A stretch of 33,193 nucleotides of DNA from Coriobacteriia bacterium (lineage in GTDB: Bacteria; Actinomycetota; Coriobacteriia; WRKU01; WQUG01). The notes beneath the pieces are model-generated. The model ran no database searches, was not told where the DNA came from, and worked only from the letters and a program-made list of their open reading frames with translations. Position numbers and translations under genes: made by a program. Positions 882 through 6,884 of the stretch are shown here, in pieces; the first letter of the stretch is position 1, and the number at the start of each line of letters is the position of its first letter. The stretch is from the NCBI GenBank assembly GCA_009781115.1, contig WQYT01000015.1:1-33193 (forward strand), read 5' to 3'.

Positions 882-970
882 ATATTCGGCCAATAAATCT
901 GCACAACGCGCATAATATTCGCTGTAAAAATCTGCACCAGCATAACAACATTCGGCGTAATAATCTGCAC
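882..970. repeat. three degenerate repeats at exact 33-bp period upstream of the ATPase gene
   Basis: Three 23-base units start at 882, 915 and 948. Each begins A(T/C)ATTCG and ends AATCTGCAC; 16 of 23 positions are identical in all three, and the 10-base spacers differ. The constant 33-bp period puts the units on nearly the same face of the helix (about three turns). The last unit ends in CTGCAC at the place expected for the -35 box of the promoter of the following gene. An operator array for an autoregulator is the simplest reading; the binding protein is unknown. Confidence 0.8.
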
Positions 971-993
971 ACACCTCTCTGACCTGCTACAAT
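965..993 (+). promoter_or_regulatory. candidate sigma-70-type promoter of the DUF4143 ATPase gene
   Basis: A TACAAT -10 box (988-993) stands 17 bases after CTGCAC (965-970), a weak -35 that is the end of the third 33-bp-period repeat. Transcription would start around 1000, leaving a short leader before the ATG at 1036. Overlap of repeat and -35 suggests repression by occlusion. Confidence 0.5.
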
Positions 994-1035
994 AGCAACA
1001 TGCCACGCACATTAAGCCAGAGGAGGCCATCACCC

Positions 1036-2334
1036 ATGCTCAGCCGCAAAATAGACGCCCAGCTTCTCGCCTGGAAAACCCGGCTCGATCACAAGGCCCT
1101 AGTGGTAAAAGGCGCGCGGCAAGTGGGCAAAACCTTCAGCATCGATCACTTCGCGCGGCAAAATTACCGTTCCTACATCCCCATCAACTTCGAGGAGACC
1201 CCCTCGCTCAAAGCAATCTTTGAAGGCGACCTCGACGCCACAACGATCATCAAGCAGCTCACTCTGCGCATCCCCGGCGCGACGATCATCCCCGGCGGCC
1301 ATACGCTGCTGTTTCTCGACGAGATACAGAGTTGTCCCCAGGCGCGCACGGCTCTGAAATTCCTGGTTCAGGATGGTCGTCTTGATGTCATAGCATCCGG
1401 CTCGCTGCTCGGGATCAACTACGCGGAGGTCTCCTCGTTTCCTGTCGGCTACACCGATCAGCTTGAGATGCACTCGCTGGATTTCGAGGAGTTCTGCTGG
1501 GCGAGCGGGGTTTCGCACGCGGCGCTCACAGACCTGCTTGCGCACTATCAGCAACGTACCCCGATCCCTCAGGCAACGCACGATTATATGCTCCAGTTAT
1601 TCAAAGAGTATATTGTCATCGGAGGGATGCCCGCCGTTGTATCCGCCTTCACCGCACACCACGACTTCAACGAGGCGCTGCGGCTGCAAAAAGGGGTCGT
1701 CAATGACTACCTTGACGACATTGCAAAATATGCGAAGGACGCCGAGAAGGCCAAGGCGCGCGCGTGCTTTCGCTCGGTTCCGCGCCAGCTTGCCAAAGAC
1801 TACAAGAAGTTTCAGTACAGCGTAGTCGAGAAAAACGGGAGCTCCCGCAAGTTCGCCGGCAGCCTGATGTGGCTGCTGGACGCAGGCATCATCACGATCT
1901 GTCACAATCTTAAACGTCCGGAACTCCCCCTGGAGGGCAATGCCGATGAGGCGGCGTTCAAAGTCTACTTAAGTGACACCGGCCTTTTGGTGTCGATGCT
2001 TGAGGAAGGCTCTGCCGCTGACATCATTGACGGAAACCTCGGCATCTACAAAGGGGCAATTTACGAGAACATCATCGCCGATGTCTTTAACAAGGCCGGG
2101 CGCAAGCTCTACTACTTTGAGTATCGCCACCAGATCGAGATAGACTTCTTCATCCGCTACCGCGGCGCCGCAACTGCAGTTGAGGTCAAATCAGCGGAGA
2201 ACACCAAGTCGAAATCACTGCGCGCCATACTCGATAACTACCAGGTGACCCAGGCGATCCGGCTCTCAACCAAAAACATCGGAGAGAGCGGCCCAATTCT
2301 GAGCCTCCCTCTCTATCTGGCCCCCTTTATCTAA
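1036..2334 (+). CDS. AAA ATPase with DUF4143 domain (AAA_14 family)
   Basis: A 432-residue protein of the AAA_14/DUF4143 family. Walker A GARQVGKT is at residues 26-33 and Walker B LLFLDEIQ near 92-99. The C-terminal DUF4143 part contains YLSDTGLL and then a PD-(D/E)XK-like segment, EIDFF followed by AVEVKS, as in many members. The ORF track starts at 1000, but I prefer ATG 1036 because AGAGGAGG lies about 10 bases upstream and the family begins close to this Met. Members are common, often multicopy and mobile in anaerobes; their biological role is poorly established (suspected defence or plasmid/TA-like behaviour). It is preceded by a repeat array and a promoter of its own and followed by a TA pair, so it looks monocistronic. 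The family call is strong; the function is not known. Confidence 0.85.
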   Translation: MLSRKIDAQLLAWKTRLDHKALVVKGARQVGKTFSIDHFARQNYRSYIPINFEETPSLKAIFEGDLDATTIIKQLTLRIPGATIIPGGHTLLFLDEIQSCPQARTALKFLVQDGRLDVIASGSLLGINYAEVSSFPVGYTDQLEMHSLDFEEFCWASGVSHAALTDLLAHYQQRTPIPQATHDYMLQLFKEYIVIGGMPAVVSAFTAHHDFNEALRLQKGVVNDYLDDIAKYAKDAEKAKARACFRSVPRQLAKDYKKFQYSVVEKNGSSRKFAGSLMWLLDAGIITICHNLKRPELPLEGNADEAAFKVYLSDTGLLVSMLEEGSAADIIDGNLGIYKGAIYENIIADVFNKAGRKLYYFEYRHQIEIDFFIRYRGAATAVEVKSAENTKSKSLRAILDNYQVTQAIRLSTKNIGESGPILSLPLYLAPFI

Positions 2335-2491: not shown

Positions 2492-2791
2492 ATGGTATTC
2501 ATGACAACGCGTGAATTGCGCACCAACACAAAAGAACTGTGGGAAACCCTGGATTCTCAGCAGGAGATCGTACTGACCAATAACGGTAAGCCCCGGGCGG
2601 TTGTGATCCCTACTGATCCCGAAGACCTGGAAGAGACGCTCCTCAGGATCCGCAGCGCTCGCGCAAAGGCGGCATGGTATTCCATCCGCGCGCAGTCCGA
2701 AGCAAATGGCACAGGCAACTTGAGTATGGACGAAATAGATGCGATCATCGCTGAGTCGCGTGCAGAAAGGCGCGCACAGCAGAGCGCCTGA
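2492..2791 (+). CDS. Phd/YefM-type antitoxin
   Basis: A 99-residue protein with the Phd/YefM N-terminal DNA-binding fold: TTRELRTN, then IVLTNNGKPRAVVIP, the typical strand-turn-strand that ends in a conserved Val/Ile-Pro. The C-terminal half is charged and helical (ending in a Glu/Arg/Ala-rich stretch), the usual toxin-wrapping region. Start: AAGGAG lies six bases before ATG 2492; Met-4 (2501) is possible but less well spaced. Its stop is one base before the start of the PIN gene, so the two are one operon with likely translational coupling. It should neutralise the downstream PIN toxin and repress the promoter at the 2453-2481 inverted repeat. Confidence 0.85.
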   Translation: MVFMTTRELRTNTKELWETLDSQQEIVLTNNGKPRAVVIPTDPEDLEETLLRIRSARAKAAWYSIRAQSEANGTGNLSMDEIDAIIAESRAERRAQQSA

Positions 2792-2792
2792 T

Positions 2793-3197
2793 ATGGGAGC
2801 ACCACGCCTGGTTGTTCTGGATACCAATGTTCTGGTATCAGGGAATATCACAAAGCATAATTCCCCTCCCACTGAACTGGTTGGGATGGTGCTTGATGGC
2901 TTATTGCGCCTTTGTTACGACACCCGCATGATGGCTGAGTACCGCGAGGTACTTTCAAGGCCACAGTTCAATTTTGATACTCGCGAGAAAGAGCTCCTGT
3001 TTGAAATGATCACAAGGTATGGCTTCGACGTTGATCCTCCTCGCTCCACTCTTGACTTTTCTGATGAATCAGATCGCCCGTTCTATGAAGTAGCAGAGCT
3101 CTGCCTTTGCCCGTTGGTAACAGGCAATAAAAAGCACTTTCCGCAGAGGGAGTGGATACTCAGCCCGGCGGAGTACCTTGCCGCGCTGTGGGAGTGA
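2793..3197 (+). CDS. PIN-domain toxin (COG1569-type ribonuclease)
   Basis: A 134-residue PIN protein. The first acidic site is in VVLDTNVLVSG (Asp-10); the middle carries the family's YREVLSRPQF segment; the end has SDESDRPFYEVAE followed by LVTGNKKHFP and LSPAEYL, the classic COG1569 pattern. PIN toxins are Mg2+-dependent endoribonucleases that cut tRNA, rRNA or mRNA when freed from antitoxin. The ORF track begins at 2739, inside the antitoxin; ATG 2793 is chosen because it follows the antitoxin stop directly and starts at the beta-strand before the catalytic Asp. A decayed relative of the same family lies on the minus strand at 5387-5557. Confidence 0.85.
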   Translation: MGAPRLVVLDTNVLVSGNITKHNSPPTELVGMVLDGLLRLCYDTRMMAEYREVLSRPQFNFDTREKELLFEMITRYGFDVDPPRSTLDFSDESDRPFYEVAELCLCPLVTGNKKHFPQREWILSPAEYLAALWE

Positions 3198-3403: not shown

Positions 3404-3691
3404 ATGGATAAGGTTTTTGTGGATGACAGGGTTCCACAGCGACATCCAAATATCTCAAAGAATGATGCAATGGTAGCGTGGAAGAATTGCATGAGGTCTC
3501 GGCCCAGGATCAACAAGAACCCCAGTGAGTGTCTGGCTATTGGAGTAGACGGGAAAGGCAGACTCTTGGAACTTGTTGCCCTGAGGGACACTGAGGGGGA
3601 CTGGTTGATTTATCATGCAATGACGCCGCCTGCGGAAAACGCGAAAAGAGAGCTTCAGTTTGACCGGAGGAAAAGCCATGAAAAACGATGA
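3404..3691 (+). CDS. BrnT-like toxin candidate
   Basis: A 95-residue protein. RHPNISKNDAMVAWKN, then SECLAIGVDGKGRLLEL, then the late APxxAK-like segment (TPPAENAKREL) follow the order of BrnT/DUF4258-type RNase-fold toxins: a helix with RHxIS, strands with a GxDxxGR turn, and a C-terminal helix. BrnT proteins are small RelE-fold ribonucleases. AGAGGTGG lies just before the ATG. The next gene is a ribbon-helix-helix protein that overlaps its end by 14 bases, the toxin-first order usual for BrnT/BrnA. Family assignment is by pattern only, so a different RelE-like group cannot be excluded. Confidence 0.6.
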   Translation: MDKVFVDDRVPQRHPNISKNDAMVAWKNCMRSRPRINKNPSECLAIGVDGKGRLLELVALRDTEGDWLIYHAMTPPAENAKRELQFDRRKSHEKR

Positions 3692-3953
3692 ATTGCATAA
3701 GAAGTTCGGCGTTACCGATGCACAGCTTGATGAACGGGCCGCTGAGTACGAGAGCGAGTCCTGGGAAGGGATGGAGTTCGGTAGAATAGTTCAGGGCCGA
3801 CCTAAGATTTGCGATGAGGAACTAAAGCCGTTGACCATCAAAGTGCCCGCCTCGCGCATTGCGGCTATACAAGAGTCTGCTGCCAGGCGCGGCGTCTCAC
3901 GTTCAGAGTTCGTACGTCAGGCGATCGACAACGAGCTTGCGACCGCCTCCTGA
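3678..3953 (+). CDS. ribbon-helix-helix (BrnA/CopG-like) antitoxin
   Basis: A 91-residue protein. The C-terminal 45 residues hold a CopG/Arc-type ribbon-helix-helix: the strand LTIKVPASRIAAIQ, then ARRGVSRSEFVRQAIDNEL, the canonical turn and second helix. The N-terminal half is acidic and helical (ERAAEYESESWEG), fitting a toxin-binding arm. Start: GGAGGAAAA is directly upstream of ATG 3678; the ORF track's 3660 would start inside that Shine-Dalgarno. It overlaps the preceding BrnT-like gene by 14 bases, so the pair is co-translated and probably autoregulated through the promoter at 3337-3365. Confidence 0.78.
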   Translation: MKNDELHKKFGVTDAQLDERAAEYESESWEGMEFGRIVQGRPKICDEELKPLTIKVPASRIAAIQESAARRGVSRSEFVRQAIDNELATAS

Positions 3954-4020: not shown

Positions 4021-4082
4021 CTGCCTGGTATACCATTTGCACCATCTTTAAGATACTGTTTGCACCCTGCCTGGTATACCAT
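4021..4082. repeat. direct repeat with palindromic core TGGTATACCA
   Basis: The 16-base sequence CTGCCTGGTATACCAT occurs at 4021-4036 and again at 4067-4082; TTTGCACC is also repeated (4036-4043 and 4059-4066). Each copy contains the 10-bp palindrome TGGTATACCA. They lie in the 274-base gap between two TA modules. A two-site operator or a recombination remnant is possible. Confidence 0.7.
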
Positions 4083-4198: not shown

Positions 4199-4227
4199 GA
4201 GGTTATCTTGAAAGGATGGTTCCCTTT

Positions 4228-4485
4228 ATGTTGACCTTGCCATTGGCAGAGGCGAAGACTCAGTTTTCGCAGGTGATGAAAAAAGTGCGTACAGGTGAAT
4301 CAGTCACGGTGTCGTACGGGAAAAAGCGTGAACCGATCGCCGTCATCATCCCCTTTGATGACTGGTCGAAACTCAATCGCAAGCCGCGCAAGCTGGGAGT
4401 TCTGCAGGGCAGAGGGTCGGTGGAGTTTGCTGATGACTGGGCGATGACGGCTGAAGAACTGATCGGTGAAGAGCCGGTTGTCTAA
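4228..4485 (+). CDS. Phd-type antitoxin
   Basis: An 85-residue Phd/YefM-family antitoxin: LPLAEAKTQFSQVMKKVRTG, then ESVTVSYGKKREPIAVIIP and DDWSKL, the standard DNA-binding N-domain; the short acidic C-terminus (DDWAMTAEELIGEEPVV) would bind the toxin. Start chosen at ATG 4228, because AAAGGA ends immediately at the upstream ATG 4216, too close to serve it, but is well spaced for 4228. The stop overlaps the toxin start by one base (TAATG), so the two are translationally coupled. It probably represses the promoter at 4170-4198. Confidence 0.85.
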   Translation: MLTLPLAEAKTQFSQVMKKVRTGESVTVSYGKKREPIAVIIPFDDWSKLNRKPRKLGVLQGRGSVEFADDWAMTAEELIGEEPVV

Positions 4486-4880
4486 TGGGCTATCTTCTGG
4501 ACACCCACACGATTCTCTGGATGCTGCTGGAGCCGGAGAAGCTCTCGGCGGAAACGCACAAAGTTTTGCTGAATAATGATGTTGATATTTATTATTCACC
4601 TATTAGCTTGTGGGAGATCGCTATCAAATACTCGATTGGAAAGCTTAATCTGCACGGGGTTACTCCTGATGATGTGATGGCGGCCCTTGATGAGGAGCCT
4701 TTTGACTGTCTTGATGTCTTTCCGGGCATCTGGGCGCAGAGTTATCAGCTGCCCCGGCTCCACAGCGACCCTTTCGATCATCTGCTCGTCTGGGAGGCGC
4801 TCACCAACGACCTGACCTTTTTGAGCGCAGACAAAAAACTCCGTGCGTACGAAAGCGAAGGCCTCCGGATCATTGCGTGA
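4485..4880 (+). CDS. PIN-domain toxin, VapC-like (COG3744 type)
   Basis: A 131-residue PIN protein of the group usually paired with Phd antitoxins. It opens with YLLDTHTILWML (first catalytic Asp-6), has SPISLWEIAIKYSIGKL with the conserved Glu, and ends with DPFDHLLVWEA and FLSADKKLRAY, supplying the remaining acidic residues. All expected motifs are intact, so it should be an active metal-dependent ribonuclease. It follows its antitoxin with a one-base overlap. It belongs to a different PIN branch from the gene at 2793, so the two systems are not a simple duplication. Confidence 0.88.
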   Translation: MGYLLDTHTILWMLLEPEKLSAETHKVLLNNDVDIYYSPISLWEIAIKYSIGKLNLHGVTPDDVMAALDEEPFDCLDVFPGIWAQSYQLPRLHSDPFDHLLVWEALTNDLTFLSADKKLRAYESEGLRIIA

Positions 4881-5708: not shown

Positions 5709-6884
5709 ATGAGCGAGAAGATCGAAACCTACCGGGATGCTGTTGTAAGAATCAAGAACGCGGTGCTGCAAAGCAGGTACCGGGCAGCAAGCGCCGCAAA
5801 TGCAGAGCAGCTGAACTTGTATTTCAGCGTTGGCGGATACATTTCTGTCAATACACGTTCTGGAAAATGGGGAAGTGGTGCCATTGAGGCCATATCGCAA
5901 CAACTCCAGACGGAACTGCCGGGGCTACGCGGGTTTTCGCCGACGAGCATGAAAAGCATGAGGTTGTTTTATGAGGAGTGGAGTGACGTAATTCGTCCGT
6001 TGGCAACGGACGAATTACCGCTTGGAACAAATCGGCAGTTGCTAACTGCCGATTTAGAAAGCGCAAATGGTCCAACCGGGCCTGCTATTGCAAACGCAGT
6101 TGAGTCAGAGGACTTCGCAGCATTTCTGCGGGTGGGATTTACTCATCACCGTCAGATTATCGCAAAGTGCAAAGACCTCGATGAGCGCTGGTACTACATC
6201 AAGCGTTGTGCCGCTGAGTTCTGGTCGGTCGAGGCGCTCAAGTCTCATATGCGCGCAAGGGATTATCAGCACAGCGGCGGCCTGCCAAACAACTTCACTC
6301 TGACGCTGCCTGATGAGCACACTGCGGCAAGGGCGGTGCGTTCATTTAAGGATGAGTATCTGCTGGACTTCATCAACATTGAGGATGAAACTGATCCGGA
6401 GCTTATCGACGAACGTGTTGTAAGTCATGAAATCGTACGCAATATCACGAAGTTCATCATGAGCATGGGCCGAGGCTTTACTTTTGTCGGTGAGAATCAT
6501 CGAGTGATTTTTGATGAGCAGGAATACTTCATTGACATCTTGCTGTACAGTCGAGACCTGCGTTGTCTGGTCGCGTTGGAGCTTAAGAGTGGCGGCTTCA
6601 AACCTTCCTATCTCGGGCAACTTTCGTTCTATCTTTCTGCTTTGGACGAGCTGGAGAAGATGCCGGATGAGAACGGCTCGATTGGACTCTTGCTCTGCAA
6701 GAAGGCCAGCAAATCGACCGTGGAGTTTGCTGTGCGGGACTATAACAAGCCGATGGGTGTTGCCGTTTATAAGGCTGCCGAGGATGTCCCGGAGCAATAT
6801 CAATCCTTGAAACCCCTTATCGACGGCGTGCAGGGTATTCTGTCTGAGGAGAACGAGGTTGATAGTGCAGCACCCTCGCAGTGA
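5709..6884 (+). CDS. DUF1016 family protein with PD-(D/E)XK nuclease domain (YhcG-like)
   Basis: A 391-residue member of the DUF1016/YhcG family. The N-terminal domain (about 1-140) includes YFSVGGYISVNT, GFSPTSMKSMRLFYEEW and THHRQIIAKC, typical of DUF1016_N. The C-terminal domain (about 240-370) is the PD-(D/E)XK-like part: FIDILLY (Asp-276), then VALELKSG (Glu-291, Lys-293) and KPSYLGQLSFYLSAL. Catalytic residues are in place. Relatives are often found in defence islands and beside restriction genes, but the substrate is not established. Start ATG 5709 has a strong AAGGAGG. Oddly, residues 95-103 and 108-116, at the N-domain junction, are encoded by two perfect DNA palindromes. It is the last gene of the TA island. 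Confidence 0.85.
   Translation: MSEKIETYRDAVVRIKNAVLQSRYRAASAANAEQLNLYFSVGGYISVNTRSGKWGSGAIEAISQQLQTELPGLRGFSPTSMKSMRLFYEEWSDVIRPLATDELPLGTNRQLLTADLESANGPTGPAIANAVESEDFAAFLRVGFTHHRQIIAKCKDLDERWYYIKRCAAEFWSVEALKSHMRARDYQHSGGLPNNFTLTLPDEHTAARAVRSFKDEYLLDFINIEDETDPELIDERVVSHEIVRNITKFIMSMGRGFTFVGENHRVIFDEQEYFIDILLYSRDLRCLVALELKSGGFKPSYLGQLSFYLSALDELEKMPDENGSIGLLLCKKASKSTVEFAVRDYNKPMGVAVYKAAEDVPEQYQSLKPLIDGVQGILSEENEVDSAAPSQ
5988..6055. repeat. two perfect palindromes inserted in frame in the DUF1016 gene
   Basis: Arm 5988-6001 and its exact complement 6005-6018 (14 bp, loop GGC), then 6029-6040 and 6044-6055 (12 bp, loop GCT). They encode IRPLATDEL and NRQLLTADL, two variants of one peptide pattern, and because of the symmetry the minus strand encodes almost the same peptides. 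The centre TT-NNN-AA and ends match the intergenic palindrome at 4134-4160, which would read IHPLSMDEL. Confidence 0.85.

Follow-up and report, generated by a model that had tools for sequence, protein, structure and literature searches.

What recognises the three evenly spaced direct repeats that precede a gene for a DUF4143 ATPase, and what does this recognition do for the gene? The question is raised by a contig of a Coriobacteriia bacterium (WQYT01000015.1; the window, 33,193 nucleotides). The preliminary description of this DNA proposed that a single protein binds the repeats cooperatively, perhaps the ATPase itself or a partner. Judging from evidence that is computational throughout, the array is probably a private autoregulatory operator of the downstream gene product, an ATPase-nuclease that would bind it as an oligomer and read its variable core with a loop of the nuclease fold.

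The array and its gene

The array consists of three 23-bp units starting at positions 882, 915 and 948 (Table 1). Counting on the sequence confirms that 16 of the 23 columns are invariant and that the period is exactly 33 bp from unit 1 to unit 2 and again from unit 2 to unit 3. With a unit matrix built without the window, units 1, 2 and 3 score 18.4, 27.8 and 19.7, the next best on the plus strand of the 33-kb window reaching 7.6. When the upstream region is compared with itself, z is about 8 against dinucleotide shuffles. The array is absent from the output of Tandem Repeats Finder at a score of 30, which is a matter of threshold. Copies of the unit elsewhere in the genome, named at the outset as evidence against an operator, were not found: genome-wide statements on the window's own genome rest on pattern searches, and in its 2.0 Mb such a search with up to three mismatches returned the three units and two chance-like matches.

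The best local promoter match has its -35 (TGCACA, 966-971) overlapping the end of unit 3 and its -10 (TACAAT) at 988-993. The likely start codon is the ATG at 1036 rather than position 1000, because homologues begin at residue 13 of the longest ORF (P0001). The array ends 65 bp before this ATG, and residue numbers are counted from its Met.

Other readings of the repeat were set aside. A plasmid iteron or a CRISPR array agrees poorly with spacers of 10 bp and imperfect units, and the neighbours checked in this respect (gyrA, small TA/RHH genes and the DUF4143 gene downstream) comprise neither rep nor cas genes. Full dyad symmetry of the unit, which is perfect in one unit of locus L067 (TGCATATTATTCCTAGGAATAATATGCA), is not claimed for the family, because the left TGCA half (columns -5 to 0) is unconserved family-wide.

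Table 1. Features of the array, its promoter and the downstream gene (positions in the window)
Feature	Position	Strand	Sequence or remark	Basis
Operator unit 1	882-904	+	ATATTCGGCCAATAAATCTGCAC; ATATTC-GGCCAA-TAAATCTGCAC	Sequence and unit matrix
Operator unit 2	915-937	+	ATATTCGCTGTAAAAATCTGCAC; ATATTC-GCTGTA-AAAATCTGCAC; nearest to the family consensus	Sequence and unit matrix
Operator unit 3	948-970	+	ACATTCGGCGTAATAATCTGCAC; ACATTC-GGCGTA-ATAATCTGCAC	Sequence and unit matrix
Best sigma-70-like promoter match	966-993	+	TGCACA-16-TACAAT; weak	Consensus match only
Ribosome-binding-site-like sequence	1019-1026	+	AGAGGAGG	Read from sequence
AAA_14/DUF4143 ATPase-nuclease gene, PDC-S01-like	1036-2334	+		Start by comparison with homologues
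Predicted AAA+/STAND-type ATPase module	1036-2004	+	Residues 1-323	AlphaFold2 model (pLDDT 90) and fold matches
Predicted PD-(D/E)XK nuclease-fold domain	1996-2331	+	Residues 321-432	Fold matches and invariant residues
Putative specificity loop	2122-2133	+	YRHQ, residues 363-366; hairpin preceding the catalytic-D strand	Covaries with operator core

Conservation of the array upstream of homologues

The homologues compared are the best 80 among 84,980 species genomes, with about 45-65% identity; many of these genomes are MAGs, and gene starts are heuristic. They belong to Bacillota, Bacteroidota, Spirochaetota, Actinomycetota, Pseudomonadota, Elusimicrobiota and an archaeal bin. The check proposed beforehand, a search at other DUF4143 loci, had a clear outcome: an array with the same period (32/33 bp) is conserved upstream of 74 of the 79 testable close homologues. 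At least two matrix-matching units 31-34 bp apart precede 55 of the 80 genes, against 0 of 400 shuffles. Of the 25 without such a matrix match, one offers too short an upstream sequence; in 19 of the other 24, self-comparison reveals diverged units that recur every 32 or 33 bp, in Bacteroidales typically AAAACTCGCCCGAAAAAGTGT or AAAAGTCGCCCGAAAAAGTGT. Clear arrays of three units at 33 bp are found before the genes of Segatella copri DSM 18205 (WP_006847938.1, AAAAGTCCCTCATAAAAGTGT) and Collinsella aerofaciens (WP_320677913.1, CATTATTCGATGGAAAAAC).

The consensus of the 23-bp matrix is [AT]TATTC-NNNNN[AGT]-AAAAT[AC]TGCA. Most arrays hold 2-4 units, with ten in a Treponema locus (L058), and the spacings of the homologue arrays (n = 98) are 33 bp in 84 cases, 32 bp in 12, and 31 bp and 34 bp in one case each. 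The preliminary description also noted that the window array reads on the minus strand as an 11-residue repeat; since 32-bp spacings also occur in homologous arrays, a coding origin is rejected and this reading is an accident of 33 being 3 x 11.

Within arrays, identity is 0.86 in the left part of the unit, 0.77 in the core and 0.86 in the right part, against 0.40 in the spacer. The core changes in concert, because its identity of 0.77 within arrays drops to only 0.36 between them. Conservation of the units (0.77-0.86) but not of the spacers argues against a fresh duplication as the cause. Chance or a recent tandem duplication without function, for which nothing speaks except the small number of units, is already contradicted by this difference and by the exact period across phyla, and is next to impossible.

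Private arrays and subfamily-specific periods

The window genome encodes 20 DUF4143 genes above the cut-off, plus one weak match. A clear direct repeat (z >5) lies upstream of 15 of these 20 paralogues; when direct or inverted repeats are counted, 19 pass, some inverted matches (L006, L013) possibly being unrelated. Nearly all of these arrays differ in sequence from one paralogue to the next, including four units of CAAAGTCAAAAGTAAAATACCGC, four of ACCGTGAAAATGGTAGACTAGAC, ATCCTCTATTTC-CGTAG and TTGCATTTGGTAAACTAAACTGG. In a set of 80 DUF4143 genes from the window's genome and related ones, 45 exceed z=4; among control genes the figure is 21 of 330, and of these 21 several adjoin DUF4143 genes.

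The period follows the subfamily of the protein as defined by its P-loop. It is 32-33 (or up to 34) bp in the GARQVGKT subfamily, 23 bp in 36 of the 39 scoring arrays of the G(P/A)K(W/G/A)(C/V)GKT subfamily, and 21-22 bp in the GPRQTGKT subfamily, while the GPRQVGKT and GxRR(C/S)GKS subfamilies mostly have palindromic pairs about 32-41 bp apart. A period set by the protein class, together with a sequence private to each gene, is the pattern predicted by self-recognition.

The array is also largely confined to genes of this family. A two-unit pattern, with three mismatches allowed, was found in 32 of 39 whole genomes, and its reversed control in 0. Nine of the ten contig stretches examined hold extra pattern matches, the tenth (L176) being the already known locus L067. 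Five extra arrays (L167, L168, L170, L171 and L175) sit before another DUF4143 gene, and a further one (L173) precedes a DUF4143-like start, MKRKIY, whose ORF was not recovered. L169 and L172 are orphans, and L174 is a three-mismatch match without array character. The array is private to the gene's own promoter, as is expected of an autoregulatory operator.

A separate host transcription factor regulating many such genes would also suit the operator-like geometry upstream of the -35. This possibility is quite improbable: paralogues within one genome carry different arrays, the same unit family stands beside the same protein in unrelated phyla, the core tracks residues of the protein itself (see below), and the units are absent from the other promoters of the genome. 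As a global-regulator reading it was rejected on the per-paralogue privacy of the arrays.

Several loci deserve separate mention. Outside their arrays, paralogues L017 and L019 have a longer upstream sequence in common, approximately CTGCTGACAGAGTAA.TG..TGCTA.ATTGCA.TTGAGATGGCAATT (score 38.5), perhaps a dispersed intergenic repeat of the window genome. The orphan array of L172 (G023:C9:25000-29193, array at 2393-2445) lies in a promoter stretch nearly identical to that of DUF4143 locus L049 of the same genome and is followed by an unrelated ORF; it is a candidate for gene loss or for a second operator. In a Bacteroidales locus, a second DUF4143 gene (L091, 6585, plus strand) that had surfaced as an apparent control match has its own 33-bp array, GGTGTCAAAATGTTACAAAAAATAATAATTGTT.

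The window itself holds an orphan array of 2-3 units of the 23-bp class on the minus strand at 4021-4082 (GGTGCAAATGGTATACCAGGCAG / GGTGCAAACAGTATCTTAAAGAT), without an adjoining DUF4143 gene; matches to it precede DUF4143 genes of related genomes (L195, L197). Flanked by an RHH gene on one side and a Phd/PIN pair on the other, it may be what remains of a lost copy. The DUF4143 gene is directly followed by two Phd/YefM-PIN toxin-antitoxin pairs and a CopG-like RHH gene that has a small partner (2492-3197, 3404-3953 and 4216-4880), and beyond these TA/RHH genes a YhcG/DUF1016 nuclease (5709-6884), forming a small defence-like cluster behind gyrA.

The ATPase-nuclease and its predicted structure

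The identification of the downstream gene as a DUF4143 ATPase was borne out by matches to AAA_14 (PF13173, 90.4 bits) and DUF4143 (PF13635, 102.2 bits), with cut-offs of 27 and 28.1. The PADLOC model of PDC-S01 (PDLC04786) matches the protein over its full length (E 2e-151, residues 13-442). A sequence search of the PDB with the protein gave no useful match.

The predicted ATPase module contains Walker A (GARQVGKT) and Walker B (LFLDE) motifs, and its AlphaFold2 model (pLDDT 90) is closest to the archaeal ATPases 2qen (Z 16.4) and 2fna (Z 15.4). It also matches STAND proteins of the NLR/CED-4 type (CED-4, RPP1; Z 13-14), mostly over residues 1-323. With its P-loop, its Walker motifs and an archaeal ATPase/NLR fold, the protein has the features of a STAND/AAA+ ATPase, an activity that is predicted. 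The C-terminal domain folded alone resembles McrC (Z 9.1 over 98 residues), EndoMS (Z 8.6) and Can2 (Z 8.2), and Foldseek adds DdmD (E 9e-4). Residues E344, D370, E383 and K385 are invariant in 46 homologues; fold and E/D/ExK site together mark this region as a PD-(D/E)XK domain with putative cleavage activity.

PDC-S01, a single-gene phage defence candidate made of an ATPase fused to a PD-(D/E)XK domain, counts as the fourth most common defence, and few defence candidates of bacteria and archaea are commoner than DUF4143/AAA_14 genes (PMC12988326). In rumen genomes no single locus is more frequent than PDC-S01 (PMC13356809), and DUF4143 appears in one paper in a table only (PMC4406477). The defence activity of PDC-S01 is not validated (PMC12988326), and a defence role of the window protein, which resembles this very common system in sequence, is accordingly that of a candidate. 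The candidate status (PMC12988326) is what could favour the repeat as a recognition mark on phages or plasmids attacked by the system; against this, an exact search of 2.9 million viral contigs (IMG/VR) for the two-unit pattern found none, and such a mark is very improbable.

A four-residue loop covaries with the operator core

In 42 and then 57 arrays, protein columns were examined for whether they predict, over and above general relatedness, how alike the operator cores (unit positions 7-12) are. Four consecutive residues, 363-366, rank at or near the top and form the best of 191 four-column windows (z 6.5). Pairs at 0.60-0.65 overall identity have a core identity of 0.68 if at least three loop residues are common and of 0.24 if at most one is. 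The link appears both in disjoint nearest pairs (P=3e-4) and in leave-one-out prediction (P=2.5e-5).

At the level of single positions, Lys or Arg366 goes with G at operator position 9 (16/21 against 1/36, P=5e-9, the best of 900 tests, the next being 2e-4), and Arg364 with G at position 10 (8/8 against 14/49, P=2e-4). Both pairings are chemically sensible. After thinning to below 75% identity both links are kept (P about 1e-3); among representatives below 65% identity (n=15) the link of Lys/Arg366 loses significance and that of Arg364 is marginal, ancestry being only partly controlled. Loops HNST or YNST mostly accompany the cores CTTTGA or GTTTGA, HNSQ or YNSQ mostly GTACGG, QN[GN]K mostly GCGGG and YR[AHS]x mostly G[AG]CGTA; YRNR is found with GTGGCG and PSDS with GTCGGT. 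Loci L049, L038 and L245 are exceptions to this code. For the 23-bp class, a whole-unit similarity scan gave no loop signal at n=24 or n=41; a k-mer test associates Lys at loop position 3 with GCCAA and Asp with TCGGA, a clade-confounded result that may be regarded as suggestive.

In the predicted structure, residues 363-366 form the hairpin that joins strands 359-363 and 367-375, the latter bearing D370. This position and the invariance of E344, D370, E383 and K385 place the predicted reading loop within a nuclease fold whose active site looks intact. The proposal that one protein binds the array, perhaps the ATPase itself, gains support here: because each paralogue has an array of its own, the period tracks the subfamily and the core varies together with four nuclease-fold residues, the array is probably bound by the ATPase-nuclease itself.

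Promoter geometry and the sign of regulation

The overlap of the last unit with the -35, described for the window, holds for its best local promoter match but not as a family norm: in 33 of 57 loci the -35 starts 6-8 bp past the last unit, and in 6 more 15-17 bp past it, about one turn further. An array of the 33-bp class that lies upstream of the -35, and not over the promoter core, fits an activator as well as a repressor. The spacing of 6-8 bp, with the six loci about one turn further, is what would be expected if an upstream-bound ATPase-nuclease touched RNA polymerase and activated its own gene. Activation nevertheless seems somewhat unlikely: arrays of the 23-bp class mostly run over the predicted promoter core (33/38, with weak promoter scores), as expected of a repressor, and several promoters have good -35 and -10 hexamers that need no activator. 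Autorepression is the favoured sign, and a footprint of 33 bp per unit would reach the -35.

The fixed place of the array relative to the promoter also bears on whether the array is a target or assembly site of the nuclease, for self-targeting or mobility (cleavage, transposition, addiction), with regulation secondary. The invariant catalytic residues E344, D370, E383 and K385, the PD-(D/E)XK fold as predicted reading domain, the multi-copy spread of the gene family across phyla and the rare orphan arrays (window 4021-4082, L172, L169) agree with this explanation. A cleavage or insertion site, however, need not keep a fixed distance from a promoter, and we judge the explanation unlikely.

Proposed mechanism and relation to known systems

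In the autoregulatory mechanism that we infer, from physical binding and oligomeric state to sign and trigger, the ATPase-nuclease would bind its own promoter as an oligomer, with one protomer or dimer per 32-33-bp unit and the protomers on nearly the same face of the helix (about three turns). Binding along the array may be cooperative. The hairpin loop 363-366, just before the catalytic Asp strand, would read the variable core at unit positions 7-12, and invariant parts of the protein would read the flanking ATTC and AAAA..TGCA. Binding would place the gene under autoregulatory control, most likely of a repressive kind: the level of ATPase-nuclease would stay low, and the protein would remain assembled on the operator until released by a signal.

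The closest regulatory parallel found is RptR, a homodimeric repressor of a phage-defence island with three 9-bp direct repeats in its promoter, which shares the three direct repeats at a defence-locus promoter and the autoregulatory logic (PMC12255303). RptR is a separate regulator with 9-bp repeats, whereas here the ATPase-nuclease is the apparent reader, the periods are 32-33 or 23 bp, and the sequence is private to each paralogue. Nuclease or toxin genes whose own locus encodes their DNA-binding regulator are also known from the boxes of type II restriction-modification controller (C) proteins and from autoregulated toxin-antitoxin operators. There the DNA is bound by a dedicated HTH protein or an antitoxin, whereas the array of the DUF4143 gene would require no partner gene, its predicted reader being the nuclease fold. 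The closest solved folds to the ATPase module, the archaeal STAND-like ATPases SSO1545 (2fna) and PABY2304 (2qen), match residues 1-323 only, the C-terminal nuclease-fold domain lying outside. We know of no operator for either of them. The PD-(D/E)XK enzymes McrC, EndoMS, Can2, PspGI and BamHI share the fold of the C-terminal domain, in which E-D-ExK is invariant among the homologues; what sets the present domain apart is its apparent use in reading a promoter array, with cleavage putative.

For DUF4143/PDC-S01, to which the window protein is a full-length match, no operator, promoter array, DNA target or specificity, trigger or regulation was found in the literature searched (subscription papers and preprints apart). 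The window array is one case of a general rule that is apparently undescribed. Taken further, the PD-(D/E)XK domain of DUF4143/PDC-S01 proteins might be an evolvable reader recoded by a four-residue hairpin, besides a possible effector, with the STAND ATPase templated and held inactive on a private, subfamily-spaced array until triggered, so that one protein would be sensor, repressor and nuclease; this wider view is speculative, possible but doubtful.

For the family, the array gives each DUF4143 protein a ready-made predicted DNA ligand, probably read by four residues, and opens the function of this large, unknown family to testing. It also supplies dozens of natural pairs of protein and operator, perhaps mutually orthogonal, and suggests that promoter reading by a nuclease fold is possible and can evolve.
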